Assembly (NCBI GenBank): GCA_022432975.1
Contig: CM039510.1
Coordinates: 9,206,414-9,270,413, forward strand
From: Begonia masoniana
Taxonomy: Eukaryota > Streptophyta > Magnoliopsida > Cucurbitales > Begoniaceae
Reading direction: 5' to 3'
DNA: 64,000 nucleotides
Below are positions 2,782-37,369 of this stretch, in pieces (the first letter of the stretch is position 1; every line of letters starts with the position of its first letter). Below the pieces are notes generated by a model. That model saw nothing but the letters and a program-made list of their open reading frames with translations, searched no databases and was not told where the DNA came from. Made by a program: the position numbers and the translations under genes.

Positions 2782-3573
2782 GTAAGTTTTCCCTTCGTTT
2801 TCTCGAGATTTAGTGGCTAGATAGCAAATAGAGTGCAATGTGTGTATTTTTGAGAATGCTGTGAGTGAGTTGAGTTTAGGTTAGTGTTGAATCAGGAGTG
2901 TGCGATGATCCGAACTTCTAAACTAGCTCCTTAGGTTTGTGAATGGTGTAGGATGAGGATTAGTGAAGATCTGAATGGTATTTTGTTTATGACATTAGGT
3001 GAACATGACTTCCAGAGTAGTTGAAACCGAGCGACTTTCAAGAGACCAGGTAAGTGAAGTTTGCTTGTGCCTTCGAGCCTACATCACAAAACATTAGGAT
3101 TATGTTTATTTGAAAGTGTCTGTGTATTATGTATCATGTTTTAAAAATATACGAAAATGAATTTGAATGCATGTTGGCATGGTAAGGAATGAACATATTG
3201 AAACAGCTATGTGAATAGATACACTGTTAAGGGAAATAATCCGCCCCTTAATGAGACAGTGGATGCATATACTTTGGAAAAATTGATTAAATTCCCAATT
3301 TCACAAGGGGATCTGAACAGTTATGTGCATCATATTTACTGTTAAGGGAATTAATCCAACCCTTAATGAGTCAGTGGATACTTGTACTTTGGGAGAAGTG
3401 ATCCAACTCCCAATTTCACAGGGGGATCTGAACAGTAACGAATGCAAATGCAACTGAGATGAGAAAGTAGAAATTTGCATGTTTAGGAATTTATGATTCA
3501 GCATTTTAGCATTTCATTTTCTTACTGCTTTACTTACTTAGCATTAGGCTAATAGATGAGTTTTGTGATGTAG
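2782..3573 (+). other. Putative two-intron leader with a 51-nt micro-exon
   Basis: Intron 1 would run from the donor CTAG|GTAAGT (GT at 2782) to the acceptor ATGACATTAG (AG at 2997-2998). The micro-exon would be 2999-3049, ending CCAG before GTAAGT. Intron 2 would be 3050-3573, with a CTAAT branch-like site about 20 nt before the acceptor GATGTAG. The same sites in the same order occur in LTRs B and E, C2 has a weaker first donor (TTAG|GTTAGT), and G matches in reverse orientation. Splicing is inferred; no transcript data are available here. Confidence 0.5.
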
Positions 3574-3574
3574 G
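3078..3574 (+). other. Predicted structured RNA domain: closing stem plus 7-bp/11-nt hairpins (copy in LTR A)
   Basis: A perfect 15-bp inverted repeat (3078-3092 with 3560-3574) encloses the segment. Inside lie hairpins with 7-bp stems and 11-nt loops at 3227-3251 (TTAAGGG/CCCTTAA), 3342-3366 (TTAAGGG/CCCTTAA) and 3389-3413 (TTGGGAG/CTCCCAA). A decayed one lies near 3275; its 3' LTR counterpart near 11998 is intact (TTGGGAA/TTCCCAA). Loops fit AANTRATCCRM. The right arm of the closing stem contains the putative acceptor AG. Further copies are described under the other LTRs. Confidence 0.6.
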
Positions 3575-4000
3575 TGTTGAGGAGACTGCAGGTGAGTTCC
3601 TTGAGTGCACAGATGAATAGATTGGTTGGGTACATCCATGTTTCGGCCTGGTAAACTGATGAGGCGGATTAACTAATGTCTGTAGTTGGAATGGTTTAGT
3701 TGACAGTGTCTCAATCTGAGTATGCTAAGTTTTCATGACAGTAATGTTTTTTTTTAATATTTTGAATAACGTTTGAGATTTTCTGATGGGTAGTATTCTG
3801 TGAGTTTAAATGTTCGTTCTTGCTGGATTTGAGTAATGCAATAATTTGAATTGTTACTGAATTGATTCAGTAAAGTGAGTAAATTCTTTTCTGTAGTTAA
3901 GAGTTGTTGTTCTGTTCTCTGTCGGTAGATGAAGTCTATCGCAGATGTTGAGTTGTTAATCTGTTCTCTATTGGAAGATGTCCTCATTGAGAACTCGATG

Positions 4001-4997
4001 ACGTCACCGGTGGATGTATGATAAAGTCGATCGGATGAATGAATCATCCAGCTGACGTCACCGGTGGATGTATGATAAAGTCGATCGGATGAATGAATCA
4101 TCCAGCTGACGTCACCGGTGGATGTATGATAAAGTCGATCGGATGAATGAATCATCCAGCTGACGTCACCGGTGGATGTATGATAAAGTCGATCGGATGA
4201 ATGAATCATCCAGCTGACGTCACCGGTGGATGTATGATAAAGTCGATCGGATGAATGAATCATCCAGCTGACGTCACCGGTGGATGTATGATAAAGTCGA
4301 TCGGATGAATGAATCATCCAGCTGACGTCACCGGTGGATGTATGATAAAGTCGATCGGATGAATGAATCATCCAGCTGACGTCACCGGTGGATGTATGAT
4401 AAAGTCGATCGGATGAATGAATCATCCAGCTGACGTCACCGGTGGATGTATGATAAAGTCGATCGGATGAATGAATCATCCAGCTGACGTCACCGGTGGA
4501 TGTATGATAAAGTCGATCGGATGAATGAATCATCCAGCTGACGTCACCGGTGGATGTATGATAAAGTCGATCGGATGAATGAATCATCCAGCTGACGTCA
4601 CCGGTGGATGTATGATAAAGTCGATCGGATGAATGAATCATCCAGCTGACGTCACCGGTGGATGTATGATAAAGTCGATCGGATGAATGAATCATCCAGC
4701 TGACGTCACCGGTGGATGTATGATAAAGTCGATCGGATGAATGAATCATCCAGCTGACGTCACCGGTGGATGTATGATAAAGTCGATCGGATGAATGAAT
4801 CATCCAGCTGACGTCACCGGTGGATGTATGATAAAGTCGATCGGATGAATGAATCATCCAGCTGACGTCACCGGTGGATGTATGATAAAGTCGATCGGAT
4901 GAATGAATCATCCAGCTGACGTCACCGGTGGATGTATGATAAAGTCGATCGGATGAATGAATCATCCAGCTGACGTCACCGGTGGATGTATGATAAA
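4001..4997. repeat. 54-bp tandem array 1, about 18 copies
   Basis: Near-identical 54-bp units each carry TGACGTCACCGGTGG and two GGATGAATGAATCATCC-type palindromic words. The unit length is a multiple of three, which creates a long but meaningless open frame on the minus strand. The copies look almost identical, so the expansion is recent. The matching part of the 3' LTR (29975-30130) has only about three copies. Confidence 0.95.
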
Positions 4998-5408
4998 GTA
5001 CGAAAATGAATTGAATGCATGTTGGCATGGTTAAGGAATGAAAATATTGAAACAGCTATGTGAATAGATACACTATTAAGGGAAATAATCCGCCCCTTAA
5101 TGAGACAGTGGATGCATATACTTTGGAAAAATTGATTTAAATTCCCAATTTAACAGGGGATCTGAACAGTTATGTGCCTCCATATTTACTGTTAAGGGAA
5201 TTAATCCAACCCTTAATGAGTCAGTGGATACTTGTACTTTGGGAGAAGTGATCCAACTCCCAATTTCACAGGGGGATCTGAACAGAACGAATGCAAATGC
5301 AACTGAGATGAGGAAAGTAGAAATTTGCATGTTAGGAATTTATGATTCAGCATTTTAGCATTTCATTTCTTACTGCTTTACTTACTTAGCATTAGGCTAA
5401 TAGATGAG
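4998..5408 (+). repeat. Second copy of LTR segment 3152-3557
   Basis: The segment starts at TACGAAAATGAATT and ends at AATAGATGAG. It repeats the hairpin row of LTR A with small indels, and is embedded between the two 54-bp arrays. It lacks the CCTACATC left arm of the closing stem, so this copy cannot form the full domain. Confidence 0.9.
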
Positions 5409-6170
5409 TGAATCATCCAGCTGACGTCACCGGTGGATGTATGATAAAGTCGATCGGATGAATGAATCATCCAGCTGACGTCACCGGTGGATGTATGATA
5501 AAGTCGATCGGATGAATGAATCATCCAGCTGACGTCACCGGTGGATGTATGATAAAGTCGATCGGATGAATGAATCATCCAGCTGACGTCACCGGTGGAT
5601 GTATGATAAAGTCGATCGGATGAATGAATCATCCAGCTGACGTCACCGGTGGATGTATGATAAAGTCGATCGGATGAATGAATCATCCAGCTGACGTCAC
5701 CGGTGGATGTATGATAAAGTCGATCGGATGAATGAATCATCCAGCTGACGTCACCGGTGGATGTATGATAAAGTCGATCGGATGAATGAATCATCCAGCT
5801 GACGTCACCGGTGGATGTATGATAAAGTCGATCGGATGAATGAATCATCCAGCTGACGTCACCGGTGGATGTATGATAAAGTCGATCGGATGAATGAATC
5901 ATCCAGCTGATCGGATGAATGAATCATCCGGCTGACATCACCGGTGGATGTATGATAAAGTCGATCGGATGAATGAATGATCCGACTGATGTCACCGGTG
6001 GATGTATGATAAAGTCGATCGGATGAATGAATCATCCAGCTGACGTCACCGGTGGATGTATGATAAAGTCATCGGATGAATGAATCATCCGGCTGACGTC
6101 ACTGGTGGATGTATGATAAAGTCGATCGGATGAATGAACCATCCGGCTGACGTCACCGGTGGATGTAGGA
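5409..6170. repeat. 54-bp tandem array 2, about 9 clean and 5 diverged copies
   Basis: The units match array 1 to about 5909. After that, copies carry changes such as CATCCGGCTGACATC and CATCGGATG, giving an older-looking edge of the array. The array ends at a GGATGTAGGAAGTGTTTTGTCG block that is also present at 30124 in the 3' LTR. Confidence 0.9.
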
Positions 6171-6578
6171 AGTGTTTTGTCGTTTTGTGACCGGATGATG
6201 TAGCCAAAGTTTTGTCGCTTTGTCACCAGGGAAGCCTTCTGGTTCCCGTTTCAGCCTCTTCCGTTGACTATTGCTCGGCGGTAGATATGTTTGACTTCTG
6301 TAACCTTTCAAGTATTTCACGATTTAAACCCTTATCTCCTTTGGCCGATTGTTTCTTAATATTCCAACCGATTATTCAACATTTCTTTATATAGTTTTGT
6401 TTAACACTATTTTTGCTTAAATGATTTCCGCTGCTAGTTCTTTTTAGATATTTCAAGGTTTTAGAAAAATGTCAAATTTTGACTTTCGAGCGAAACTTTA
6501 AATTTGGTTCAAAGTTTCTTAGTTATATTCGGGTTATAAGTAGCGAACCGGGTTCAGAAAACTCGGAGCGTTACAGTA

Positions 6579-6591
6579 TGGTATCAGAGAC
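6579..6591 (+). other. Primer-binding site of element A
   Basis: TGGTATCAGAGAC starts three bases after the LTR terminus and matches the 3' end of initiator-Met tRNA over its first 11 bases. The same site and flank occur in element B. Confidence 0.9.
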
Positions 6592-6730
6592 ATTCAGTTA
6601 AACCGTTCAAAAGATTACTCATCAGTGCCAATTGTTACATGAGAGTACTTCAACAACTGTAAGTGTTTATGTTAACCTTAGTTATTAGATATTTAAGAGT
6701 ATAATTAACCCTGTACAAGAATTAAGTGCA

Positions 6731-7790
6731 ATAGCCAGACGCCCAGGGAGACCTAGAGTGCCAAGAGAGATGCCTAATGTGAGAAGTGAAGAGGAGCCTA
6801 GTGTGATTAGGCAGCTGACAGATTTAGTTCGTCAGCAAACTGATTTAGTGCGCCAACAGTCTGACCAACTAGGAGTACTGCTGAACCGAGAGGTGTTAGG
6901 AAGTGCCAACTCGGGTTCTAGCAATGAACATTCTGGAGACAGATTCCGGAGACTAAGACCACCCACGTTTGATGGATAGTCATCTGATCCAGTTATTGCT
7001 GATGGATGGCTTAGGAAGATTGAAAGCATGTTTAGGTGTGCCAACATTGGAGAAGGAGACAAGGTCACGTTGGCAACATTTCACTTGGCTGGTGAAGCTC
7101 AAATCTGGTGGGAAACATTAGAGACCACCACTGATGTTTTGGCGATACCTTGGTCACAATTCAAGGACTTTTTCTGTGAGAAGTATTTTAGCAGCACAGT
7201 CCAAACCACGAAGAAATTGGAGTTTCTAAACTTGAAGCAAACAGGGTCTGTGGTCGAATACAGTAGGCAATTTGAGTCCTTGTCCAGGTTTGCTGGACAT
7301 TTCGCTCACAAGGACGAGGATAAAGTGTTTAAATTTGTGCATGGACTGAAGCCAGAAATCTACCGAGGGGTTAAATTCTGTGGTATTAAAGGTTTGACAT
7401 TCAGTGATGTTGTGTCCACTGCTCTGGAAGTGGAAGAAGCTGAAGGGAAGTGTGCTAGACCAAAGGAGGTCCCACAAAGGTTCAACCAGCCCCACCAATT
7501 AAGAGGAACGAAGAGGCCAAGTGAAGGCCAAAATAGCAAAGGAGCAGGAGGGAAGGTACAGAATGTCAGGAAATTTCCCCAGTGTCCTAAGTATTTGAAG
7601 AGCCACCCGGGGGAATGCAGACTGGGCTTTGGGAAGTGTTTCAACTGTGAGGAGGTTGGACACACGTTCAAGGAATGCTCGAAGCCTAGAATCACCAGAT
7701 GCTACAATTGTAACAAGGTCGGCCACGTTAGCAGGGATTGTCCTGTTCCTAAGAGTGGCCCTGCTATGATTAAACCAAGAATATTCTCCA
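6731..7790 (+). pseudogene. Element A gag (capsid/nucleocapsid), broken
   Basis: This encodes the structural polyprotein that would form the particle and bind element RNA. The family start codon is ATA at 6731 (compare the ATG of B at 37217, followed by the same ARRPGRPR residues). A TAG at 6977-6979 interrupts the frame, which continues in the same frame afterwards. A retrotransposon gag domain follows, with residues such as [10 protein letters not shown]. Two CCHC zinc knuckles start at about 7637 ([14 protein letters not shown]) and 7702 ([14 protein letters not shown]). No product of full length can be made. Confidence 0.88.
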
Positions 7791-11232: not shown

Positions 11233-12228
11233 TGTAACACCCGGTTTCTATTAACCGATTTACCTTTTTCCAATTATAGAGAATGTTGTAAAATTGAAAT
11301 TTTAGGTGAATTAGTGATTAGGTTAATAGGTGAATGAGTAAGGACAAAATGGTAAATTGAAATTTATTGTGGATAACGTATTTAAGGAAGGGTTTAATGA
11401 GGTTTAGCCGCCACTGTTCCTTCATTTTTCCTTCTCGGTATTCAGCTCAAGCTCAACAGAGCTCCAAACGATTTTCCCCCTCCGATCTCCATTTCCTCAA
11501 ACTAGGTAAGTTTTCCCTTCGTTTTCTCGAGATTTAGTGGCTAGATAGCAAATAGAGTGCAATGTGTGTATTTTTGAGAATGCTGTGAGTGAGTTGAGTT
11601 CGGGTTAGTGTTGAATCAGGAGTGTGCGATGATCCGAACTTCTAAACTAGCTCCTTAGGTTTGTGGATGGTGTAGGATGAGGATTAGTGAAGTTCTGAAT
11701 GGTATTTTGTTTATGACATTAGGTGAACAGGGCTTCCAGAGTAGTTGAAACTGAGCGACTTCCAGGAGACCAGGTAAGTGAAGTTTGCTTGTGCCTTCGG
11801 GCCTACATCACAAAACATTAGGATTATGTTTATTTGAAAGTGTCTGTGTATTATGCATCATGTTTTAAAAATATACGAAAATGAATTTGAATGCATGTTG
11901 GCATGGTAAGGAATGAACATATTGAAACAGCTATGTGAACAGATACACTGTTAAGGGAAATAATCCGCCCTTTAATGAGACAGTGGATGCTTATACTTTG
12001 GGAAAATTGATCCAATTCCCAATTTCACAGGGGAATTTGAACAGTTATGTGCATCATATTTACTGTTAAGGGAATTAATCCAACCCTTAATGAGTCAGTG
12101 GATACTTGTACTTTGGGAGAAGTGATCCAACTCCCAATTTCACAGGGGGATCTGAACAGAAACGAATGCAAATGCAACTGAGATGAGAAAGTAGAAATTT
12201 GCATGTTTAGGAATTATTATTCAGACTT
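11233..12228 (+). repeat. 3' LTR of element A, first piece
   Basis: It is nearly identical to 2509-3500 of the 5' LTR, including the GTAAGT donors, the micro-exon and the left arm of the closing stem (11802-11816). Hairpins lie between 11948 and 12144. The piece ends at ATTATTCAG, where a 13-bp array begins. The right arm of the stem now lies at 29538-29552, beyond the nested insertions. Confidence 0.93.
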
Positions 12229-12232
12229 AAAC

Positions 12233-12724
12233 ATTTGACTTAAACATTTGACTTAAACATTTGACTTAAACATTTGACTTAAACATTTGACTTAAACATT
12301 TGACTTAAACATTTGACTTAAACATTTGACTTAAACATTTGACTTAAACATTTGACTTAAACATTTGACTTAAACATTTGACTTAAACATTTGACTTAAA
12401 CATTTGACTTAAACATTTGACTTAAACATTTGACTTAAACATTTGACTTAAACATTTGACTTAAACATTTGACTTAAACATTTGACTTAAACATTTGACT
12501 TAAACATTTGACTTAAACATTTGACTTAAACATTTGACTTAAACATTTGACTTAAACATTTGACTTAAACATTTGACTTAAACATTTGACTTAAACATTT
12601 GACTTAAACATTTGACTTAAACATTTGACTTAAACATTTGACTTAAACATTTGACTTAAACATTTGACTTAAACATTTGACTTAAACATTTGACTTAAAC
12701 ATTTGACTTAAACATTTGACTTAA
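12233..12724. repeat. 13-bp tandem array, about 38 copies of ACTTAAACATTTG
   Basis: The units are perfect or nearly so. The same word occurs twice at 13049-13075, at the edge of LTR C1, which is the likely source of the unit. The array gives no meaningful reading frame. Confidence 0.97.
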
Positions 12725-13048
12725 ATATACGAAAATGAATTTGAATGCATGTTGGCATGGTAAGGAATGAACATATTGAACAGCTATGTGAACAGATACA
12801 CTGTTAAGGGAAATAATCCGCCCTTTAATGAGACAGTGGATGCTTATACTTGGGAAAATTGATCCAATTCCCAATTTCACAGGGGAATTTGAACAGTTAT
12901 GTGCATCATATTTACTGTTAAGGGAATTAATCCAACCCTTAATGAGTCAGTGGATACTTGTACTTTGGGAGAAGTGATCCAACTCCCAATTTCACAGGGG
13001 GATCTGAACAGAAACGAATGCAAATGCAACTGAGATGAGAAAGTAGAA
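12725..13048 (+). repeat. Second copy of A 3' LTR segment 11873-12195
   Basis: It starts at ATACGAAAATGAATTTG and ends at GTAGAAATTT, again carrying the hairpin row. The segment start is the same as that of the duplicated segment at 4998 in the 5' LTR, although the arrays next to the two copies differ in sequence. Confidence 0.9.
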
Positions 13049-14239
13049 ATTTGACTTAAACATTTGACTTAAACATTTTGAGCGTAAAACATTTTGACTT
13101 TTAAAACATTTAGAACTAGACTAAAACCATTAATAACTTAAAACAATTAACACTTAAAGTAAGATCAATTAAAACAAAACACTAATATAACCTATACTCA
13201 AGAAAACAAACTGCGTGGATCGCTCTAAAAATCGAGCATATCCTTACCTGTTTTAAAATAACCATACATTTCAAAATACCCAAACAGTTCTAGTATATTC
13301 TCCAAAATAAAGACTTCACATTTTAAACAATCTACTACCACTACATATACATCATTCTAAACAATCTACTACCACTACATATACATCAAAACTTGACTTT
13401 TCGTACATTTTCTATCAAAACCAATCGATCCACATACGTAACATTTTCATTCTCTTTCTTAATCAAAACGACACGTAAACATACCCAAAACAGACACGTC
13501 CACATACTAACCATAGACACCTACTAACCACGGTCGGAATCGCCCTAACAATATTGCCGGGTTGCCGCCATGGTCGTACTCCAACAACTGCATCCGTAAT
13601 CCTAGCATGCTCATGAAATCTCACCGTACCTGTTCTTCTGCACCTACATCACAGAACTCAAACTATAAGCCTAATGCTTAGCAAGTAGTGACTATATGAA
13701 TTTAAAACATTTTACTTAACATATGCAGTTTCTACAGTTTCATCGTACATAATCATTTCGTTTCGTTTCATCGTTCATATTCATTTCATTTTGTTTCATC
13801 ATACATATTCATTTCATTTCGTTTCATCATACATATTCATTTCATTTCCATCGTACATACATGTAATCCTCTACCAATGGAGGGCGGATTAGTTTCTCCA
13901 TCTCTAGACGTTCCACAACTTCATCTGAAGGGTGAACCACTTCCTTCAGACGTTCTATATTTTCTAGACGTTCCACAATTTACATCTGAAGGGTGAACCA
14001 CTTCCCTCAGACACTTTACATTTTCGTTTTACATCGTTGTCGTTTCTACGTTCAAATCGTGAAAACATATGCTAAAACATTTTCGTACTTTTTCTAAAAC
14101 ATGATGCATGAGAAAGCTAAACATACATAGAAACATGCAACCTAACCTAGCGTTCCGTGATGTAGGCCCGAAGGCAACACGCATGCAACACTACTTACCT
14201 GACGTCCTTAGTAATTCGTTTCTATCTGAAATCTTAACC
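13049..14239 (-). mobile_element. LTR C1 (minus), 3' portion
   Basis: In reverse complement this is the R/U5-like half of an LTR of the same family as C2: GGTAAGGATATGCTCGATTT at 13251-13232, then toward higher coordinates the GATGTAGGTG acceptor block near 13650, a TTAGCATTAGG-like block, and hairpins with GTGGTTCAC loops at 13924-13950 and 13985-14011. Its outer end is obscured by the 13-bp array. C1 is a solo or truncated LTR, since no internal region is seen. It continues at 17741 and 29307. Confidence 0.8.
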
Positions 14240-15344
14240 GTGGATGTAACACCCGAGTTTTTCGGGTTTTCGCTCCAAGGCTATTTTCGTAAATAAGTAA
14301 ATTAGGTCCGTTTTGCGAGCGGATCGTTTTATTAGGACCCTAGAAATTTACGGGAATTTGTAGAAGAATAAGTAAAAGTTTAGAAACCCAAATCGAGAAG
14401 AGTAATACTAGAGTTCCCGTTTTAACCTTTTAATGTATCAATTTGTAAAAATAGCAAAGTAAGTCCGTTTTGGAAACGGTGAGTTTTGTTAGAACTCTAA
14501 GATTAAATTGGAATTTGTGGAGATATACAGGATTTAACAGGATTACGGAGAGCGTATTCATCGTTCATATCATTTATGTTTCATCATACATATTCATTTC
14601 ATTTCGTTGCATCATACATATTCATTTCATTTCCATCGTACATACATGTAATCCTCAACAATGGAGGGCGGATTAGTTTCTCCATCTCTAGACGTTCCAC
14701 AACTTCATCTGAAGGTGTGAACCACTTCCTTCAGCAGTTCATATTTTCTAGACGTTCCACAATTTACATCTGAAGGTGTGAACCACTTCCCTCAGACACT
14801 TTACATTTTCGTTTTACATCGTGTCGTTTCTACGTTCAAATCGTGAAAACATATGCTAAAACATTTTCGTACTTTTTCTAAAACATGATGCATGAGAAAG
14901 CTAAACATACATAGAAACATGCAACATAACCTAGCGTTCCGTGATGTAGGCCCGAAGGCAACACGCATGCAACACTACTTACCTGACGTCTTTAGTAATT
15001 CGTTTCTATCTGAAATCTTAACCGTGGATGTAACACCCGAGTTTTTCGGGTTTTCGCTCCAAGGCTATTTTCGTAAATAAGTAAATTAGGTCCGTTTTGC
15101 GAGCGGATCGTTTTATTAGGACCCTAGAAATTTACGGGAATTTGTAGAAGAATAAGTAAAAGTTTAGAAACCCAAATCGAGAAGAGTAATACTAGAGTTC
15201 CCGTTTTAACCTTTTAATGTATCAATTTGTAAAAATAGCAAAGTAAGTCCGTTTTGGAAACGGTGAGTTTTGTTAGAACTCTAAGATTAAATTGGAATTT
15301 GTGGAGATATACAGGATTTAACAGGATTACGGAAGAGCGAAACG
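13776..15344. repeat. 784-bp tandem duplication spanning the C1/C2 junction
   Basis: About 13776-14558 is repeated at about 14560-15344 with an offset of 784 bp. The unit includes the end of LTR C1, the GTGGA target site and the first 315 bp of LTR C2 (both copies begin TGTAACACCCGAG, at 14245 and 15029). The duplication therefore happened after C2 inserted. The copies differ by only a few bases. Confidence 0.88.
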
Positions 15345-17740
15345 GTATTTTAATAGGAATTAGGATTATTATATTATTATTATTATAATAATTATTATTA
15401 ATAATAATTATTAAAAACAACAGAATGGTTGAAAACCATTCTGTCGTTTTTACGCTCGAGCTCGAGCCCGAGCTACGCAAGCGAAGAACAGCGGCGACTC
15501 CTCCGACGAACGCCGACGTCCAACCTCGACGTTTTCCGGCCAGACATCGTCGGCGACTCCCGGGCCGCCATTTCTGACCGTTTTCGCGTATCAAACCCGA
15601 CCGGTATGCTCGTTTTCCTCCTCTGTTTCGGTTCGGTTTTGGGTTGTGCGTGACGAGCTCGATTGAGCTCCGATCTCCGGCCGTTTTAGGTCACTTCCGG
15701 CGTGGGTTTGCCAACCCTGGGGCCGGCTATTGTTGCTCGGCCGTGGAGTGCTCGAATTGAGCATAAAACAGTGAATGCCCGATTTGGGCAACTCGGGTTT
15801 TGCTTATTGGAACTTCGATTTTAGGTTAGTTTATGTTAATTGGATGTTAGGAGGATAGATTGGTGAAGAAATTGATGGAATTTGATGAAAAATCGAAAAA
15901 GGGGAATTTTCCGAAAAAGGGCAGTTTCGGGTTTTTGATAAATTGACCTAGCTCTGGTCATTTGTTTTCAAATTCCTTTTGGCAGATTAAAATAGGTTAT
16001 TAGAGGAGTACGTGGCCGCTAGAATCGTTCGATTCCGATAACCGACGCGAAAGTTACGCGCGTTCGAAGTTTTAGGTCGGTTTTTACCGAACCCAAATTA
16101 GTGGCCCATTTAATTAGGTTTTAGTTGGATTTGGCTAGAGACTTAGTTTAAGTTTAGAGTTCGCTTAATTAAGATCGATTTTAATGCCTCTATTTATGAA
16201 ATGCTTTAGGTGGAGACGACTTTTGGACGGTGCTCGGCTAGCTACGGACGCCAGGTAAGTGGATGTTAGGCTTCCGGCCCTTAAGGCCCTACATCGTGTC
16301 AACGTTAGGTTTTTCTGTTTTGATGATGATTTTCTGACTGTGGGTTTAATGTGTCGGGTAGCCCAGGTTATTAGTTAATAGTTGTTTGTTAGGTTTTTAG
16401 TGATTAAAGCATGTCTAAGTATGTTATGCACTGTTTGATGATATGTCTTGATGATATGTTATATGTAAAGTCCTCATGCATCATGTTTTAGAAAAAGTAC
16501 GAAAATGTTTTAGCATATGATTTCATGATTTAAACGTAGAAACGACAACGATGTAAAACGAAAATGTCTGAGGGAAGTGGTTCACCCCTCAGATGTAGAT
16601 TGTGGAACGTCCAGAAAATGTATGATATCTGAAGGAAGTGGTTCACCCTTCAGGTAAAGATTTATATGTGGAACGTCTAGAGATGGAGAAACTAATCCGC
16701 CCTCCATTGGTAGAGGATTACATGTATGTACGATAGAAACGAAATGAACGATGTATGATTCTCACGTGTATGTTTCTCACGGGACTAAACGAAATGAATA
16801 TGAACGATGAAACGAAACGAAACGAAACGAAATGAATATGAACGATGAAACGAAACGAAACGAAATGAATATGAACGATGAAACGAAACGAAACGATTAT
16901 GTACGATGAAACTGTAGAAACTGCATATGTTAGGTAAAATGTTTTAAATTCATATAGTGCATCCCCTTACTAAGCATTAGGCTTACTGTTTATGTTGCAT
17001 GATGTAGGTGACAGGTGAGAGTTTCCCTTGATGACAAAGAACAGGTGGTCGACGGATGGTGCTCGTGGCGGCGGAGCATGTTTTGGCATGGTTCAGTGAC
17101 ATGGGTGTGCGCCGGGTTGTTTTGTGGTAATTGAATGTGAGTTAGAAGGTTACCAGTTGTTTGGAAGATTTTAGGGTGTACATTGAAGTTTGACATTTTT
17201 ATGGTTTTATAGTGGATATTGGTTTGGAGTTAAGTGTTAATTTGAATGAATTGATTAATGAATTTGTTTTAAGAGAAGTTTAGGGGTTTAAATGTTTATA
17301 TTCACGTTTGATTGGGGATTTGATTGGATTATCTTTGGAGGAGTTTAGGTGTCTTTATTTTAGAAATATACTGGAACTGCTTGGGTTATTCTTAACAGGT
17401 AAGGATAAGCTCGATTTTTAGAGCGATCCATGCAGTTCGTTTTCGTAAAATTTGGAAGAGTTTAGATTAAGTTAGAGTTGTGTTTATTAATGAAAGGAGT
17501 GGTTGTGTTTTGGGTGTGAGAATGAATTTATTGCTGAATGAAGGAAGAATAGGGAGCAGAAGAAAAATTTACGCGGTTACGAGAGTTTAAAGTTAAGGTT
17601 ACGTTATAGTTAGTTTGTTTAAGGGTTTTGGGAAATGTTTAAAGTAAAAATGAAAAAGTTTAAGTGAAAATACGAGGGCTTAGGTAATGATTATGTCATG
17701 GCAAGTCCGTGGCGGCCCTGATCGGGTTGGGGTCGTCACA
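15029..17740 (+). mobile_element. C2: solo LTR of a Ty3/gypsy family (2712 bp)
   Basis: Ends are TGTAACACCCGAG and GGGTCGTCACA, flanked by the duplication GTGGA (15024-15028 and 17741-17745). No internal region is present, so recombination between two LTRs probably removed it. It carries a micro-exon-like block ending GCCAG|GTAAGT at 16253, the CCTACATC arm at 16288-16295 and the GATGTAGG arm at 17001-17008. Hairpins CTGAGGG/CCCTCAG and CTGAAGG/CCTTCAG with 11-nt loops AAGTGGTTCAC lie at about 16567 and 16630. A GAAACGAAACGAAACG-type repeat lies at 16800-16905. Confidence 0.93.
15421..15443. repeat. Perfect 10-bp hairpin after a TTA/ATT microsatellite
   Basis: CAGAATGGTT and AACCATTCTG are separated by three bases. 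It follows an ATT/TTA-rich tract at 15363-15417 inside LTR C2. Confidence 0.85.
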
Positions 17741-18795: not shown

Positions 18796-20229
18796 TGTTG
18801 ACTTAAATAATGTTTAAGTCTTAATTTGTTTTTGATGATGAATTTGTCTGCTTAATATTGTAATTTGATTATGTCTATTAATTGAATTTAATGAAATGCA
18901 TTGGAGTTAGATTTGTTGGAGATACCCTTAAAAAGGGTATTTTAGTTTTTAATGCATATGATTAAGTGTACAGGGCTGAAATGTGTTAAGCAAAAGAATC
19001 AGTCCACCGGTCACAAAACGACAAGAACGGAGTCGTTTAAAAGGGTCAGTCCACCGGTCACTAAACGACAAGGCGGATGACTAAATGGAATTAGTCCACC
19101 GCTCACTAAAAGACAAGGCGGATGAGCTAAAAGAAAATACCCCACCGCTCGCTAAACGACAAAGGCGGATGTTCGAAAAGAATCAGTCCACCGCTCGCTA
19201 AACGACAAAGGCGGATGTTCGAAAAGAATCAGTCCACCGCTCGCTAGACGACAAAGGCGGATGAGTAAACCAAAATGCTCTTCCGGCCACAAAACGACAA
19301 AGGCGGAAGACTTCAACAAAATGCTCTTCCGGCCACAAAACGACAAAGGCGGAAGACTTCAACAAAATGCTCTTCCAGCCTCAAAAATTACTCTTCCGGT
19401 CACTAAACGACAGAGGTGGAAGACAACTACAAATCAATCATCCGACGCCGGTTCAAGCGTTTTAAGCTTCATCATCCGACGCCGGTTCAAGGGTTTAAAG
19501 CTTCATCTTCTGTTGGCGGTTCAAGACTATAAGTCAGCTTTGTCTTCCGCCAGAATTCAAATTAGCCGCGAAGCTACAGTGACGTCGTTTTCAGCCATAA
19601 CTCCAGAACATTAATGGCGACGACGATTTGCAACTACAAACGGCAACGGCTACCTGATCTTGTACGGAAGCTGCTCCAACGGTAACTAAACTTCTATTAT
19701 TGGATAAGGAGCATTGAAGCCAAGCCTTAATGAAGACAGAGTATATAAGCTGAGCTTAGAGCACGAAGTCCCAACTTTTGCCAATTTGAATTCTGAGCCC
19801 TAGCTGCGAAAGTTTGAACTCTCTGTATTTCTCTCTACATCTCTCAATCCTAACTTGAGATTCATCTTGTGAGATTGTAGTGTGAGCTTAATATTTTACA
19901 AACTCAAATCTGATTAAGGCAGTGGATTGACGCCCGTAAAGTTCAATCCAGGATTGTGTAAGGTTGTGGATCGACACCCGAAAGCTCGATCAAGTTTTCT
20001 CGTTGAGGAGAAGTAAGGAATCTTCAAGGGGGTGCCTTGGAGCGTGGACGTAGGCAGTTTGGCCGAACCACGTAAAAATACTGGTGTCAAATTTCTCTCT
20101 CTCTCTCTTTACATTATATTGATTACTTGTGTTAAATCTAAGTTTAATCAAGAGAGAAATTGGTTAGATCAGAAATTAAAATTAAAAAGAGTCTAATTCA
20201 CCCCCCTCTTAGACAATACCGATCCTACA
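18796..20229 (+). repeat. 5' LTR of element D
   Basis: It begins TGTTGACTTAAATAATG and ends ACCGATCCTACA. A tandem region (about 19000-19420) lies in the upper half. TATATAAGC at about 19743 is a good TATA box and places U3 to its left. The lower part is C/T-rich and ends in CACCCCCCTCTTAGAC. Confidence 0.95.
18999..19425. repeat. 46-bp-period tandem repeats with CACNAAACGACAAAGGCGGA core
   Basis: About nine units in two sub-types carry CCGCTCGCTAAACGACAAAGG or CTTCCGGCCACAAAACGACA. CGG/CCG words at both ends of each unit make it weakly palindromic. The first unit contains an 18-nt word (19007-19024) found exactly, in the reverse direction, in gypsy LTR A. The same array is in the 3' LTR at about 28075-28500. 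Confidence 0.9.
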
Positions 20230-20231
20230 AT

Positions 20232-20243
20232 TGGTATCAGAGC
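20232..20243 (+). other. Primer-binding site of element D
   Basis: TGGTATCAGAGC, followed by GAGG, lies two bases after the LTR end and is complementary to initiator-Met tRNA. Confidence 0.93.
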
Positions 20244-20295
20244 GAGGTTGAATATTGTCTAAGTAGTTTATCTAGTAAATACTGTGATATCTAAA

Positions 20296-21870
20296 ATGGC
20301 ATTCAACACACACTCCACACAAATGGAAGGTCAGTCTACCACCAGACCTCCATTCTTCGATGGTAATGATTATGTGTATTGGAAATCTAGAATGAGAATT
20401 TATATTCAGGCTATGGACTATGACATATGGAACAATATAGAAAATGGTCCATACATAGCCTTTAAAACAGAAAATGGTATTAGGATTCCCAAAGCTTCAC
20501 ATGAACTAAATGATACAGATAAGAAGAACCTGAGCCTGAATGCCAAGGCAATAAACACCTTGTACTGTGCTTTAAATAGAGACGAATTCAATAGAGTACA
20601 AGGATGTGAGAGTGCCCAAGAGATCTGGCATCTATTAGAAGTCACACACGAGGGCACAAACCAGGTGAAAGAGAGTAAATTGAGCATGTTAGTTCATGAA
20701 TATGAACTGTTTTCCATGGAAAAAGGAGAAACCATTAGTTCTATGTTTACTCGATTTACTAACATCACTAATGGTCTTAAAGCTCTTGGTAAGCTTTACT
20801 CAGGTGAAGAACAGGTAAGGAAACTTCTGAGATGCCTACCTAGAGCATGGCAACCTAAAGTGACTGCCATTCAGGAAGTAAAAGATCTCAAATCCTTAAA
20901 GCTGGAAGAGCTCATTGGATCTCTCATGACACATGAGATCACAATGAGGGCAAATGACAAGGAGGATCTCAAGGAAAAGGAGATCTCCAAGAGAAAGGAC
21001 ATAGCCCTCAAGGCCTCTTCGAGCAAACCTGATGAATCTGAAGAAGAAGAAGAAGATGAGGACATTGCCCTTATAACCAGGAGATTCAGCAAGTTCCTGC
21101 AACGGAAAAGGATGCAGGGAAAAAGATTTCCAAAGGGTGAGAAGTCTCAAAAGGACAAAGAGATCACATGCTTTGGATGTGGAAAGCCTGGTCATATGAA
21201 GGCAGACTGTCCACTAGCAAAGAAGTATCCCAAGAAGTTTAAGAAAAAGGCTATGAAGGCTACTTGGGATGATAGTGAAGAAGATACCTCTTCATCAGAA
21301 GATGAGGAAGTAGCAAACCTGTGCTTCATGGCGCATGAAGAAAAGGTTAGTACTTCTTCTTCAAGTATATTAAGTGACAGTGACAGTGATAATGAAGAAG
21401 GTGATCTGATTGATGCTTTTAACGATTTAGTTAAACAATTTAGCTTGCTAAAAGTCAAATATAATTTGCTGAAAAAGGAAAATGCAAGCTTAATTGAAAA
21501 GCATGCTAATGAAGTGAACTTGCTTGAAAAGGAGATCACTGAACTAAACAGGAAAAATGAATCTTTGAATAATGTTGTTCAGAAATTTACCTACAGTAGT
21601 AAACAACTGAACATGCTGATTAGTGATCAAAGAATGACTTTTGATAGAGCAGGCATTGGATACAATGGAAGTAGTAAAAAGAAAGTTTACAAAAATTTCT
21701 TTGTTAAATCTACTATTTGTCATGCATGTAATGAAGTAGGACATAAATCCTTTGAGTGTCCACTTAAATCAAACAATATGAAATATAACAGTAAAGTACA
21801 ATGGGTTCCCAAGGGAACCAGACCTAACACTAGGACCCAAAAGATTTGGGTACCTAAGAAGACAAATTGA
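20296..21870 (+). CDS. Element D Gag polyprotein
   Basis: This 524-residue frame would form the particle and bind element RNA in the cytoplasm. I chose ATG at 20296; an upstream in-frame GTG is less likely. The N-terminal part has the copia Gag pattern ([19 protein letters not shown]). A basic/acidic middle part (EEEEEDED) is followed by a CCHC knuckle [14 protein letters not shown] (near 21170), a second acidic-serine region, a likely coiled coil (21420-21590), and an unusual second knuckle [14 protein letters not shown] (near 21718) close to the C terminus. It ends in TGA at 21868-21870, 13 bases into the pol frame. No break is visible. Confidence 0.93.
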
Positions 21871-24800
21871 TTACTGTTTTGCAGGTTGAATGCTCTCCCG
21901 GGAAGTATCAGTGGTACCTTGACAGTGGTTGTTCAAGGCATATGACGGGAGACTCAACCAAGTTTGCTGTTGTCAACAAGAAAAAGGGCAGTGTCACTTT
22001 TGGTGGAAACCAAAAGGGCAAAATTGTTGGCATTGGCAACATAGGTAACCCTATCAATCCTCTTATAGAAAATGTTTTATTAGTTGATGGGTTAAAACAC
22101 AATTTGCTTAGCATAAGTCAATTATGTGACAAAGGGTATGAAGTGATATTTAAATCAGACTCATGCATAATTAAAGATGCTGCAAATGGCAAAATTCTGT
22201 TTACTGGCTTTAGGAAAGAGAATATTTATGTCATTGACATTGATGATATTGATATGCATGTTGATGAAAAATGTTTTAATGTTAAATCTTCTAATGATTC
22301 TTGGATCTGGCATAGGAGATTAGGACATGTAGGGATGGATACCTTAGCTAAGATTACTAAGGAGAACCTAGTTAGAGGAATCCCTAAGATATCCTTTGAA
22401 AAGGATAAGGTCTGTGAGGCTTGTCAAATGGGCAAGCAGATCAAAAGCTCTTTTGCATCAAAGAGTGCAATCTCCACTTCTAAGCCGCTCCAACTCCTTC
22501 ACATGGACCTCTTCGGTCCTTCTAATATAGCAAGCTTAGGAGGAAAATTCTATGCTTTTGTCATTGTTGACGATTTCTCTAGATTCACTTGGGTTTATTT
22601 TCTGAAGTCAAAGGATGAAACCTTTGATACTTTTTCTAGTTTTAGGAAAAGAGTTCAGAATAAAAAGGAGCTCACCATAATTGCTATTTGTAGTGATCAT
22701 GGTGGAGAATTCGAAAATGAAAGATTTGATCTCTTGTGTCTCAAACATGGAATTGAGCACAACTTCTCCTCTCCTAGAACCCCTCAGCAAAATGGTGTTG
22801 TTGAGAGGAAAAATAGGTCCCTTCAAGAGTTAGCTCGAACTATGCTAAATGAAAATGTTCTTCCTAAGTATTTCTGGGCTGAGGCTGTTGCCACAGCATG
22901 CTATGTGCTTAATCGGGTCTCCATAAGACCTATTCTAGAGAAAACTCCATATGAGCTCTGGAGTGGAAAAACTCCTTCTGTTAAGTACTTTAGAGCCTTT
23001 GGCAGTAAATGCTTCATCCTTAACACTAAGGATAACATAGGGAAATTCGATTCCAAATCCGATCTTGGAATTTTTCTTGGTTATTCCTTGACCAGTAAAG
23101 CATATAGAGTTTTCAATAGGAGAACTCTAGTTGTTGAGGAATCTGTTCATGTCAATTTTGATGAGACTCCTCAACCAATAATTAATGTGGATGAGGATGA
23201 TTCGTTGGACAAACAATTGGATTCTCTTTCTTTAGAAAAGCCTACTGTTCCCTCTCAAATTGAGAAATCTCTAGAACCATACTCTAATTCCCTAGATATA
23301 GTTCCTGTTAAAAATGAGTCTGTTGATCTACCTAGAGACTGGAAGTATATTAGAAACCATCCAATAGAAGAAGTCTTAGGTGATCCCTCTTTAGGAGTTA
23401 AGACTAGATCCTCTCTTAGGAATCTCTGTGCCAATGTGGCATTTATCTCTCAAGTAGAACCTAAGAAGTTTGAAGAGGCCGAGAGTAATGAAAATTGGAT
23501 TATGGCCATGCAAGAAGAGTTAAATCAATTTGAAAGGAGCAAGGTATGGGAACTTGTTCCGAGGCCTAAGGATCATCCCATTATTGGAACTAAGTGGGTT
23601 TTTAAGAATAAATTGGATGAAAATGGGATTGTTATTAGGAACAAGGCTAGACTTGTTGCTAAGGGGTACTCTCAAGAAGAGGGTATTGATTTTGAGGAAT
23701 CGTTTGCCCCTGTAGCTAGATTAGAGTCAATAAGAATGCTTTTAGCTTTTGCTTGTTTCAAGAACTTCACACTCTTTCAAATGGATGTAAAGAGTGCATT
23801 CTTAAATGGATATATTAATGAAGAAGTTTTTGTTGAGCAACCCTTAGGTTTTGAAGTTTTTGATAAACCCGATCATGTCTATAAGTTAAGGAAAGCTCTT
23901 TATGGTCTAAAGCAGGCTCCTAGAGCATGGTATGACAGATTGAAGAACTTTCTTGAGGAAAGAAATTTCATAAAGGGTAACTCCGATTCAACTCTGTTTA
24001 CCAGGCAAAAGGTCAATGATATTCTGTTGGTTCAAATTTATGTCGATGACATTATATTTGGCTCAACTAATGTCAACATGTGTAATGAGTTTTCTTCCCT
24101 CATGCAAAGTGAATTTGAAATGAGTATGATGGGGGAGTTAAAGTTTTTCCTAGGATTCCAGATTAGTCAATCTCTTGATGGAATTTTCTTCTGTCAAGAA
24201 AAGTACATTAAGGAACTCCTTAAGAAATTCGAATTAGAGAATGTCAAATCTTCTAAGACTCCCATGAGTACCACAACTAAATTGGATAAAGATGAAAAAG
24301 GAATTAATGTAGATATCAAGAAATATCGTGGTATGATTGGTTCTCTGTTGTATCTGACTGCAAGTAGGCCAGATATATTCTTTAGTGTTTGTCTCTGTGC
24401 TAGATTTCAAGCTGCCCCTAAGGAATCTCACTTATCGGCTGTCAAAAGAATTTTCAAATACTTAAGTGGGACTCAAGATTTAGGATTATGGTATCCAAAG
24501 GGCACCTCCTTTGATCTTGTAGGCTATTCAGATTCTGACTATGCTGGTAGTCTTATTGATAGAAAAAGCACCAGTGGCACTTGTCAATTCTTAGGAGAGT
24601 CTCTAGTGTCTTGGTATTCTAAGAAACAGAATTCTGTTGCATTATCAACTGCTGAAAGTGAATATATTGCTGCTGGCAGTTGCTGTGCACAAATGTTATG
24701 GATGAAACAGACTCTAGAAGATTATAATCTGTTTTATAATAGGATTCCTATTCGGTGTGATAACACCAGTGCTATAAACATCTCTAAAAATCCTATTCAA

Positions 24801-24989
24801 CATTCTAGAACAAAACACATAGATGTCAGATATCACTTCATTCGTGATCATGTTCAAAAAGGTGACATATCTTTAGAGTTTGTCAATTCCGAAGACCAAT
24901 TGGCAGATATTTTCACAAAGCCTTTAGATGAGAAAACATTCTGTGGTATTAGAATAAGATTAGGTCTTCTCAAGTATGAGAAAAGTTAA
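21858..24989 (+). CDS. Element D Pol polyprotein (protease, integrase, RT, RNase H)
   Basis: The frame is open from after a TAA at 21855-21857 to the stop at 24987-24989, about 1040 residues, in the -1 frame relative to gag. No ATG lies at its start, so expression needs a frameshift in the 13-base overlap or another route. Order of domains is that of copia: protease ([12 protein letters not shown]), pre-integrase [12 protein letters not shown], integrase core ([25 protein letters not shown]), RT ([11 protein letters not shown] and the catalytic YVDD near 24040) and RNase H ([30 protein letters not shown]). All expected catalytic residues are seen. Confidence 0.95.
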
Positions 24990-25277
24990 GTCTTTTTTTT
25001 TATTTTTCTGTCTTTATTGTTCACATCCTCCGGTCCTTTTTCATTTTTTTTTTCACTGGAAGATATACATCATCCACTGACCGGATGATACTTTTTCTAA
25101 TCTGTCAACACGTGTCTTTAATCGGACAATATGAATCTTACACGTGTGATTTCCGCATGTCGGGCGTAGTTCTCTCTCGTTTAAACTTGGCTTTCTCTTC
25201 GAAACGCTTCATCTTTCGCGCCCTTCCTTTCTATCGACAACCCTTGCTCTCTAGGTCGTCTTCCCAAAATTTCTCCA

Positions 25278-27575
25278 ATGGACCAAGCTTTTGCACACGA
25301 TCATGAGGCTTGTTCTTCAAGGGGTGGTGCTGATCCTGTGAAAAAGAAAGCCAAACCCAATCCTAGACCGGCATGGGTGCTCCCTCGGGGAACCAGTTGG
25401 CCGTCGCTCTACTTCATATCTGAGGCGGCTGAAATCCAATATCACGGCGACTTTAAGGACAAAAAGTTGATTCCGGGTCGTGGTATGGTTCCTGACGAAC
25501 ATGTTTCTTTAAATATTGTAGCACCCCTGGCCGATATTGGATTACTAGGACTGTTTGAGGTTGAATCCTTCTATTTTCCCTCTGCCATTAGGATGTTCTA
25601 TGCTAATCTTAGCGCTACTTCTGATCAGTCAGTAATATCTAGCTATGTGCATGGGAAAACCATAGAGCTTACCTCAAAATCCATCAATGAACTTTTGGGA
25701 GCCCCCCAGTTGGATAATCACCCTAAAATTTATTCTATTGGCCAAGAAATTCCGTTTCTAAAGCTTTCTGATGGCCAACAATTCCTAAAGGAAATTGCTC
25801 TAGATCCGAGCAATATTCCAAACCCTCTCAAAAGCAAGCATCTAACCATTAGAGCTAGGCTGCTTCATCAAATGATCTGCTACAATGTCATTCCTAAAGG
25901 GGGACATTATGATGACATTAGCAGCATGGAGCATGTCATCCTTTATGCTATCTATATGAAGTTCCCTGTAGATATTGGATACATCATCCTGCGAAGGATG
26001 ATTCAGAGTGTTTCATCAGGGACCACATCCTTTCCCTACAACCTCCTACTCATGAAGATTTTTCAGAAGTATCAGGTTGAATTTCCTGAGGATGAGCATC
26101 CCACCTGTCTGAAACATACCAGTTATTACTCCAAGGATACCTTGTCCAGGATGGGAATTAAGAAGAACCGTCAAGGGGTTTTTGTCTTGGATCAGTCCAA
26201 GCAGAGGGTAGCTAAGGTCAAAGCTGCCAAAAAGGGCAAACAGGACGTGTGTTTGGATGCAGAATCATCTGTTCAAGAAGGTGGTGGTGATTCTGAGATC
26301 CCTGCCTTTGATCTTTCCCCTCCTAGTCCTAGGGTCACTCGGCCTAAACGTCCTCCACCATTGACCAGCCGCCGTGCCCCTTCTACAAGGATTAGCCAAC
26401 CTGCTCCAATAGCTTCTGCACATCCATTTGAGGCTATTTCTGCCCCTTCTGCACCTAGCCTACCTTCACCTCCTTCTCCTCCACCTTCTCTCACACTGCC
26501 TTCACAGCCTGCTCTTCCTTCCACCTCTCCGGTGTTTCGAGCCATTTCCTCGATCATCAAATATGGTCCACCAGTTCCCTCCACCTTACCCACTCTGCCT
26601 CCACCTGCCTCATCTGAGCACCCTCTGCCTGCAGCCCCTTTGGCAACTGCTCAGGCCGAAGTTGTTCCAAGGAGGAAAAGAAAACTTGTCCTGGCAGAAG
26701 AGTCTGATCAGGATAATGTGGATGCTCCTTTGTCTCCTACTGCTCAATCTTCTACTCCCACACCTCTCCTTCCTCCCACAGTTCAACAACCAGTGTCTCC
26801 AGTCCTTCTCCCTGCTCCAATAGCTTCCCTACCTCTTACAGTTCATGGTACCTCACCAATTCCTACTGTCACTCCTGCCACTCCTATCCTTTATAAGAGG
26901 AGATCATCTATCAGTGAGGAACAGTACCTTGAGCTGAAGTCATGCCTTGCAAATCTAAAGACAGACTTCGATTCAAAGTTAAATAAACTCAAGGTGGATT
27001 TGCAAGAAGCTGCTGTGGTGGAACGGGGTCAAATGGATCAGAAATGGGACAGGCACACTAAAATCTTCTCTCGTGATCTTAAGGCTCTCTAATCTAAAGT
27101 TGAGGGTCTTTGTCCTGCACCTCATATTCCTCTCAGACCTTCTAAGCCTACTTATGAAGACCTCCTCCTTCCTTTCTCCAGATCAGAGGTTGTTACAGAT
27201 TCTAGAGTGCTGCCTTTGGATTTACAAGAGTCTGAACTAGCATTCTCTACCTCTGCTGCTCTTTCAGTACAGGAGCCATCTTTAGAGCCCTCCAGTCCAA
27301 TGGATACAACCCCTATCGCTCCTCTGGAAGTGCCTCAATCTCCTGCTGCTCCTCAAATCGTGCCTTCTCCAAGTCAGGATCTGGTGGTTTCTCCAGAACA
27401 AGTTCCCATTGTCAATTCCTGCACGGACTTGGTGATCTATCAGGCACCTCTACCTCGTGATCTTGATACACTTCAAGCTCTAGTGGATGCCTACTTCAAT
27501 CCTGCACTCACATTGCCCTCTTGGGCTATTCATGCTTTTTGGAAGAGATTTTTAGAGTCCTGTCATAAAAGATGA
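25278..27575 (+). pseudogene. Element D third ORF in env-like position, one in-frame stop
   Basis: The frame starts at ATG 25278 and is open for 604 codons to TAA at 27090-27092. The same frame then stays open to TGA at 27573-27575, giving about 765 codons in all. The N-terminal third resembles the putative plant transposon domain seen in retroelement ORFs (VSLNIVAPLADIGLLGLFEV, LTSKSINELLGAP). The middle is rich in Pro, Ser and Ala. A likely coiled coil precedes the stop (EEQYLELKSCLANLKTDFDS). I see no clear signal peptide or transmembrane segment, so a true envelope role is doubtful. It may be a recent mutation or a readthrough site. Confidence 0.75.
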
Positions 27576-27704
27576 TTTTGTTTTATCTGTATACAGTTTC
27601 TTTATAGATCTCTATTTTGAATCAGGAACTCTTTCTCTTTTAATATTCTTGCGTTGAATGCCATGTTTTCTGCTGTCTTTCTCTGTTTATTGTTTTTGAT
27701 AATG

Positions 27705-27871
27705 TCAATGGGGGAGACATGTATGCAAAATGTGTTGTATGATTTAGTTCTGGATATGCTCTCTGTTTGTTCTTTTGATATCAGATGCATATATTATGGG
27801 GGAGCTTAAATTATGGGGGAGTTTTACGTAATCAAATTTTGATAGGTTGTCATCATCAAAAAGGGGGAGAT
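27705..27871 (+). other. Multiple polypurine tracts of element D
   Basis: ATGGGGGAG-type tracts occur at about 27709, 27796 and 27813, and AAAAAGGGGGAGAT (27858-27871) directly precedes the 3' LTR. Repeated tracts of this type are a known Sirevirus signature. Only the last is at the LTR boundary. Confidence 0.88.
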
Positions 27872-32700: not shown

Positions 32701-32714
32701 ATCTACCCTCCTTA
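32701..32714 (-). other. Polypurine tract of element B
   Basis: In reverse complement TAAGGAGGGTAGAT lies directly before the LTR start, as in element A. Confidence 0.85.
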
Positions 32715-37217: not shown

Positions 37218-37356
37218 TAAACTCACTTCCTGTACAAGGTTAACTATGTTCATAAATATCTCATTACTGAGGCTAACATAAACACTTACAGTTGTTGGAG
37301 TACTTCCATGCGACGATTGGTACTGATGAGTAATCTTTTGAACGGTTTAACTGAAT

Positions 37357-37369
37357 GTCTCTGATACCA
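37357..37369 (-). other. Primer-binding site of element B
   Basis: In reverse complement TGGTATCAGAGAC follows the LTR end by three bases, identical to element A. Confidence 0.9.

Follow-up and report, generated by a model that had tools for sequence, protein, structure and literature searches.

What do small hairpins of one fixed geometry, lined up inside the long terminal repeats (LTRs) of plant retrotransposons, contribute to the elements that carry them? The row that raises this question lies in a 64-kb stretch of Begonia masoniana DNA, hereafter the window, which on self-comparison proves to be crowded with nested LTR elements (Table 1). A domain search detected gag and RVT_1 in A, B and D; an rve match in B stayed below the cut-off, and the end of D gave SH3_Tf2-1 (1.1e-24) plus a weak Chromo match (8.5e-4) below its cut-off. 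The B LTR starts with TGTAGCA and ends with GTTACA, followed by the primer site TGGTATCAGAG; going by LTR ends and size, we presume that these elements belong to a Tekay/Del-like lineage. The LTRs of A and D have a TATA-like word, at positions 147 and 221 respectively, and the pattern used found none in the B LTR. The copia element F has LTRs that are 99.9% identical and an extra ORF 3' of pol (25278-27092) matching Pfam Transposase_32, while a repeat pair at 46095-46445 and 59924-60914 (98-99% identical, with a primer-site word at 46448) has one copy interrupted by a 502-bp TA repeat. Tandem arrays of 54-bp and 71-bp units occupy the 3' part of LTRs (3999-6167, 30892-31141, 37785-38034, 48858-49076), their units centring on TGACGTCA, presumably a bZIP-like site, and on GATGA/TCATC words; at 12224-12725, within LTR A, a 13-bp unit GACTTAAACATTT is present in 38.6 perfect copies.

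Table 1. LTRs, introns and hairpin rows discussed in the text (window positions; ^ marks a splice site; 7/11, 7-bp stem with 11-nt loop)
Feature	Position	Strand	Remarks
LTR A	starts 2508	+	self-comparison
LTR A (5') intron 1	2782-2998	+	CTAG^GTAAGT...TTAG^G; splicing shown in retrocopies of relatives
LTR A (5') intron 2	3050-3573	+	holds the row; CAG^GTAAGT...GATGTAG^G; homologous intron excised in L167/L168
Hairpin A.1	3227-3251	+	perfect; TTAAGGG/CCCTTAA; loop ATCCGC can pair with GTGGAT 7 nt 3' of stem
Hairpin A.2	3274-3298	+	decayed, 6/7 pairs
Hairpin A.3	3342-3366	+	perfect; loop ATCCA can pair with TGGAT
Hairpin A.4	3389-3413	+	perfect; TTGGGAG/CTCCCAA; loop GATCC can pair with GGATC
Second row copy in LTR A	5076-5263	+	3 perfect hairpins: 5076, 5192, 5239
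A 3' LTR	starts 11232	+	self-comparison
Row in A 3' LTR	11951-12137	+	perfect hairpins 11998, 12066, 12113; intron 2 5' splice site at 11774
Repeated A row	12804-12989	+	perfect hairpins 12850, 12918, 12965
C, inverted partial LTRs	13641-17010		self-comparison
C1 intron 2	13644-14198	-	hairpins 13877, 13925, 13986
Duplicate C1 row	14661-14795	-	hairpins 14661, 14709, 14770; last two imperfect
C2 intron 2	16255-17007	+	hairpins 16568, 16629, 16683
Copia element F	18796-29306		self-comparison
B LTRs	30480-32701 and 37373-39592	-	97.7% identical to each other
B 3' LTR intron 2	31689-32174	-	four hairpins; perfect ones at 31845-31987; 5' splice site reads GTAAAT
B 5' LTR intron 2	38581-39066	-	four hairpins; perfect ones at 38737-38879
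B 5' LTR intron 1	39115-39326	-	
E LTR	47380-49396	+	self-comparison
E LTR intron 1	47590-47808	+	
E LTR intron 2	47860-48379	+	four hairpins: 48039, 48086, 48149, 48196; all but 48149 perfect
D LTRs	49450-51817 and 56563-59009	-	self-comparison
D 3' LTR intron 2	50450-51000	-	no 7/11 row
D 5' LTR intron 2	57644-58194	-	same splice signals; no 7/11 row
Branched-hairpin LTRs			L042, L043, L047, L048, L060, L062, L063, L066, L068, L069, L075

The initial annotation had described hairpins with 7-bp stems and 11-nt loops in LTR A, and the same geometry in B, E and C. Perfect hairpins are present where it had placed them in A, B and E, and C follows with perfect ones at 13925 (minus strand), 16568 and 16629, although the H3 stem there consists of 6 bp and an A.C mismatch. 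The G-U pair reported for one C1 stem is present at 13986 (CTGAGGG/CCTTCAG), and the loop said to be common to C and B, AACTAATCCGC, occurs at 31994 and 38886 in B and at 13884, 14668 and 16690 in C. The proposed loop consensus AANTRATCCRM holds less well for the H1 and H2 loops of C (AAGTGGTTCAC), which agree with it at only 9 of 11 positions, and the hairpin of LTR A at 3274 forms only 6 of 7 pairs and has a decayed loop. The hairpins are real, and they are located not in independent LTR families but in homologous LTRs of one plant gypsy lineage, A, B and E aligning with each other at about 69-78% identity.

The window contains 46 perfect 7-bp stems that enclose 11-nt loops, compared with counts of 6-34 at the remaining odd loop lengths (a TA repeat inflates the counts at even ones), and a looser scan for stem plus loop gave 91 matches against 25-45 in 20 base shuffles, about one third of the 91 being supplied by one satellite unit. 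The case therefore stands on the clustering of the hairpins, their shared loop and their recurrence. Of 39 LTRs of the A/B/E type taken from other parts of the genome, 37 contain one or more perfect hairpins. A covariance model of the 25-nt hairpin, constructed from the stems of the initial annotation, recovered them in sense orientation in A, B, C and E and gave no match in the D LTRs. Rfam families gave no match at the gathering threshold in the 64 kb and none at E<=1 in two row regions; the initial annotation likewise knew of no named family of this shape.

The interval to which the hairpins had been assigned, 3078-3574, coincides almost exactly with what we identify as intron 2 of LTR A. 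The exact 9-mer CAGGTAAGT, the word that holds its CAG^GTAAGT site, occurs eight times in the window, in all eight cases within LTRs and in LTR sense. Among 70 sampled LTRs, 51 also contain it, at a distance of 358-704 nt upstream of the anchor, and six control words looked for in the same stretches appear in 0-1; this sample is not random, comprising the first 30 places listed for the intron 3'-end word plus 40 picked by hand among the matches listed, on contig 1 only, with 17 of the first 20 selected for non-A anchors. The word on the 3' side of intron 2, ACTWAGCATTAGGCTWA N(8-30) GATGTAGGTG, has 7,932 + 7,844 = 15,776 exact matches in the 795-Mb genome, where the reversed control of the pattern has none. 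A further intron, intron 1, precedes intron 2 in A, B and E (CTAG^GTAAGT to TTAG^G) and has a similar counterpart in D; its signals are less uniform than those of intron 2, since of 30 loci 8 have the exact CTAGGTAAG and 13 a correctly placed 3' splice site word. The putative exons 1 and 2 have a GC content of 46-54% against 34-40% in the introns. Exon 1 contains no ATG in the five window LTRs scored, where composition predicts only 0.1, and intron 2 holds more ATGs than its shuffled versions in C2 (46 vs 25.2), the 5' LTR of D (31 vs 13.3) and the 5' LTR of B (23 vs 15.4), the 5' LTR of A being not clearly enriched (20 vs 16.8). Outside the LTR, an intron-like segment ACT^GTAAGTGTTTA...AG^GA between primer site and gag is common to A, B and D (6540-7060 on the plus strand in A, with a decayed 3' end; 37100-37400 and 56300-56600 on the minus strand); one exact word for this gag-proximal junction returned no spliced retrocopies, and a third intron is a prediction.

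In retroviral-type replication the RNA 5' end serves as the template for U5, so that spliced RNA, once copied, gives rise to intron-less LTRs. The junction CTTCAACCTAG^GTGAGC has 68 matches in the genome, and the sequence downstream of all 68 was inspected: in 30 of them exons 1 and 2 are joined with single-base precision, and the remaining 38 read through into intron 1 as a GTGAGC form of the unspliced site. Among the exact joins, 26 have the 5' splice site of intron 2 intact, some 61 nt downstream of where the word begins (these spliced-type matches were defined by that site after exon 2, the other 42 being read by eye), two continue past a mutated site (L118, L153) and two end in other sequence (L154, L155), intron 2 being retained downstream in 28 of the 30. 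The hairpins are kept in L101, L106, L107 and L108, which were followed to the 3' end of intron 2. Same-strand neighbours 6.5-9.2 kb apart are found among the 26 (L108/L109, L119/L120, L121/L122, L125/L126, L156/L157 and L165/L166), a distance that, judged from spacing alone, fits LTR pairs. As intron-less copies can multiply, 30 LTRs do not equal 30 splicing events, and those without intron 1 may descend from few events.

For intron 2, a first junction word gave no matches and fits only 2 of the 70 sampled LTRs, which makes the zero hardly informative. A second one, AGGANNCCAG^GTGWWGARG, fits only 16 of the 70 and has two matches in the genome, L167 and L168, two LTRs that share 98.1% identity at a distance of 6.1 kb; an apparent pol end and a purine tract precede L167, and L168 has a primer site downstream. 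In both, exons 1, 2 and 3 are contiguous, the two introns are absent at their exact ends and no hairpins were found; fully spliced RNA has therefore been copied at least once. The hairpins are thus shown to lie within a GT-AG segment that was precisely removed, along with the preceding intron, in one retrocopy, and intron 2, row included, is a genuine spliceosomal-type intron. That an element without intron 2 did retrotranspose also means that the row is not strictly required. It is the one known case of an intron-2-less template among the LTRs detectable by the word, very roughly 16/70 of 15,776 if the 70-LTR sample is taken as typical.

Templates without intron 1 were copied with intron 2 kept, and either splicing of intron 2 is a rare event or RNA lacking it serves poorly as a template. 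The scarcity of intron 2 loss may be a sign of the former. The row itself could act on splicing, as a folded string that slows the removal of intron 2 and sets the ratio of genome to mRNA with no need of a binding partner. The retention of intron 2 in 28 of the 30 exact joins is in line with such a role, as is the position of the row, which in most A/B/E-type loci precedes the branch/3' splice site word by about 130-300 nt. For a brake of this kind, however, stability would suffice, and neither the conserved loop core nor the near-fixed linker of 9-10 nt described below would be needed; we consider it unlikely.

The loop core ATCC is complementary to a GGAT 3' of the stem. We collected 127 distinct hairpins from the window and 70 further LTRs of the same genome; those sampled were chosen by at least 6 of 7 pairs plus the loop word, and their pairing percentage is therefore ascertained. 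Of 111 hairpins sampled outside the window, 97 have a GGAT that starts 8-13 nt 3' of the stem, and in 91 the distance is 9-10 nt; the motif also occurs 7-17 nt upstream (65 counts for the 111 hairpins) with a wider spread than on the 3' side, many hairpins having an upstream copy because the units are tandem. Of the 34 window hairpins, 28 allow five or more consecutive pairs (G-U included) between the loop and the 22 nt that follow the stem on its 3' side, compared with 12 for the 5' flank as a control. The loop-flank duplex energies of the 15 window types add up to -103.2 kcal/mol, a total that none of 500 flank shuffles reaches (-64.8 ± 7.3); the 5' flanks give -53.4 kcal/mol. Swapping flanks among the 15 types gave p 0.005; taken singly, three of the 15 pair with their 3' flank better than shuffles do at p<0.05. 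These observations support the prediction that each hairpin is the first stem (S1) of a compact H-type pseudoknot, which would combine a 7-bp stem, an L1 of about 4 nt and an S2 of 4-9 bp formed by the loop RATCC with the GGAT 9-10 nt 3' of the stem, and the bare hairpin is probably only half of the structure. Inverted repeats acting at the level of DNA, whether by binding protein or by forming cruciforms in the LTR, and without a role in RNA, would account for the symmetry of S1, which taken alone reads identically in DNA, and for hairpins that have GGAT on both sides; this is very improbable given the tighter spacing and better pairing of the 3' flank, the retention of pairing although half-sites vary, and the fact that the segment belongs to a spliced transcript.

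Loop-flank duplexes stand at -9.5 kcal/mol in H2 (-4.8 when shuffled) and -5.0 in H1 (-3.75), and flank swaps within a class cost little pairing (z -1.8 for H1, -1.1 for H2), indicating weak covariation of S2. The H2 loop of B, CTGATCCCA, can form 9 bp with TGGGATCAG, and the C H3 loop TAATCC can pair with GGATTA. At loop position 5, in a table that leaves out the 16 of 127 hairpins without GGAT, pairing is kept for G-C in 53 of 55 cases and for C-G in 10 of 10, and for A-U in only 12 of 46. C-type H1 and H2 have a GTTC loop and a GAAC flank in place of the ATCC and GGAT of the others. Across 38 aligned introns, the majority frequency is 0.907 in the stem, 0.932 at loop positions 4-9 and 0.934 in GGAT, with the fast sites at 0.629 (L3) and 0.769 (other loop positions); unnamed intron sites stand at 0.793, computed without four blocks outside the row that are equally or more conserved (0.907, 0.912, 0.930 and 0.981), so that the row is not the sole constrained part of the intron. 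Conserved parts joined by fast linkers match the pattern of an H-type pseudoknot, which supports the predicted fold.

A row of plain hairpins, with a protein binding the loop cores and the GGAT motifs serving as a second binding site, would explain why within-class swaps barely reduce pairing and why GGAT is also found upstream of many hairpins, and it would accommodate the H1 S2 of just 4 bp in B.1 and the broken S2 of A.2 and E.1. We nevertheless find it doubtful, as the parts of S2 are conserved together at near-fixed spacing between fast linkers, S2 reaches 9 bp in B H2, and both of its halves differ together in the C type. A pairing of the H1 loop with exon 3 (GCGGATTA) looked exact in A and B and was rejected, the site not being kept across loci.

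The initial annotation had taken covarying stems as the mark of a selected structure. Across 17 distinct hairpins, standard pairs fill 98.3% of pair cells, both sides have changed in six of the seven pairs, and the covariation score of 0.689 exceeds that of column-shuffled alignments (0.344 ± 0.039; none of 500 as high). The number of pairs with double changes is not outstanding (27 of 500 shuffles equal it) and the number of pair types is not raised (496 of 500). Stem changes are moreover not independent, because A, B and E are alignable relatives and the units are tandem duplicates. Under a tree-aware null from our own simulation no single pair reached E<0.05 (best E 0.32); this set excluded four hairpins without a GGAT-like word and contained 98 distinct rows plus 4 C-type rows, with alignment columns 28-31 anchored on GGAT. 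Stem and S2 pairs make up eight of the top 16 among 465 pairs in this simulation (hypergeometric 1.5e-9, the pairs not being independent), and S2 pairs rank 5, 13 and 16, each with E above 4. The covariation argument thus stands against column shuffles and, pair by pair, falls short of the tree-aware null. What upholds the claim of a selected RNA structure is that stems, loop core and 3' partner motif are kept while linkers vary, in a segment of a spliced transcript. Were the row a passive relic, in which a palindrome duplicated in tandem was merely passed on by descent and kept by recent amplification only, one would expect its units to be tandem duplicates (96-116 bp), the sampled LTRs to be related and the tree-aware test to be without a significant pair, as observed. 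One would not expect stem, core and GGAT to be far more conserved than the linkers within the same copies, nor different stems in the C type that still pair, and we hold a relic to be highly unlikely.

Sister LTRs with an ACTAAGC...GCTTA anchor have the same splice signals and mostly lack the row, which matched in one of 28 sources (L050); the row is present too in L044 and L061, which are of C type. In one sister group the same intron slot is occupied by one large branched hairpin closed by GGATTAAG...CTTAATCC; an alignment of 11 of its 12 matches has 92% of cells paired and double changes in 5 of 30 pairs. With yet other structures in D and other LTRs, the intron slot is often structured, its architecture varying between families.

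The H2 pattern had no matches in viral contigs, and the two matches of the H1 pattern there (L001 9769-9793 and L002 13292-13316) share a phage-like hairpin beside small ORFs that is probably an unrelated, terminator-like structure and was taken as chance. RT-based relatives were found neither in viral contigs nor in phages, and plasmids gave one Wolbachia record at 44.8%. A scan of genome contigs beyond this genome produced 82 pattern matches, among which four contigs encode relatives; only one of the four, L004, a plant-like contig in a Mycobacterium assembly, extends usefully into an LTR, with an LTR-like end TGTAACA at 4121 and CAG^GTAAGT at 5342, and stops before any row position. The R1 search of 26 loci from these and other records returned just the L001/L002 hairpin and one chance-level match. 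L003-L006 are chromovirus-like contigs of plants or other eukaryotes in Streptomyces, Mycobacterium, Trichormus MAG and Labilibacter assemblies, probably through contamination.

We suggest, at even chances, that the row is a string of compact pseudoknots which is confined to RNA retaining intron 2 and favours that RNA as the genome. It would constitute an RNA domain in the second intron of a leader encoded by chromovirus-type LTRs, whose transcripts we infer to start near LTR position 150-220. Splicing would strip the structured, often AUG-rich intron 2 from RNA destined for translation; RNA that retains it would keep the pseudoknot string and become the preferred genome through recruitment of Gag or of a host export factor. 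Such a string would fit a splicing brake as well as an export or packaging mark, and the conservation of the loop core, with a linker of almost constant length, speaks for a structure that is recognised. A fuller, retrovirus-like economy of two RNAs within the LTR, the string licensing only intron-2-retaining RNA for export or packaging and splicing providing the translated RNA, is put forward more tentatively, as something short of an even prospect; if true, it would give plants an LTR-encoded counterpart of psi or of a transport element. The 3'-end word of a leader intron that can be spliced is present in thousands of LTRs, and in many of them the intron contains a conserved RNA domain. LTR sequence in genomes of this kind is therefore in part intron, which is relevant to LTR annotation and to chimeric host transcripts. 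The natural spliced retrocopies make the role of the intron testable. How plant LTR elements discriminate genome from mRNA is known for a few cases such as BARE.

Retroviral psi offers a parallel in position, as its stem-loops lie 3' of the major splice donor in a leader part that is spliced out, and only genomic RNA has them. Psi and the row are both structured and both occupy a part of the leader that splicing removes, in our case the inside of intron 2; unlike psi, the intron of the row lies wholly in the LTR leader, with its 3' splice site still in the LTR, and a packaging role here would be one by analogy. In architecture there is a likeness to tobamovirus 3' UTRs, which contain tandem small H-type pseudoknots; the row would likewise be a series of these, at a different place in the genome. 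Ogre, EVADE and the sunflower elements Tyran and Varan also show that plant LTR elements can have introns, those of Ogre and EVADE (PMC12786077) and those implied by the spliced isoforms of Tyran and Varan (PMC7730604). These introns are not known to lie in the LTR or to hold structured rows. Plant LTR elements are generally without introns according to a review that names Ogre and EVADE as exceptions (PMC12786077), to which the BARE paper adds its own BARE intron and Bagy2 (PMC3735527). The sunflower Tekay clade is described as huge yet missing from the expressed set (PMC7730604), and among the titles and abstract openings listed by searches of the open-licence PMC literature, none names LTR introns or pseudoknot rows for plant LTR elements. 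The musD MTE of a mouse LTR retrotransposon is likewise a pseudoknot/kissing-loop RNA and is needed for RNA export (PMC5767303, PMC12786077); here, in contrast, the row is intron-borne and made of small units, and in plants TREX is said to serve instead of NXF1 (PMC12786077). In the barley copia element BARE1, splicing and separate promoters separate translated from copied RNA (PMC3735527). The BARE intron, of 104 nt, is near the end of gag, whereas the introns described here are in the LTR leader, and spliced DNA copies, which the available excerpts of the BARE paper report as not found (PMC3735527), are present here in the genome.
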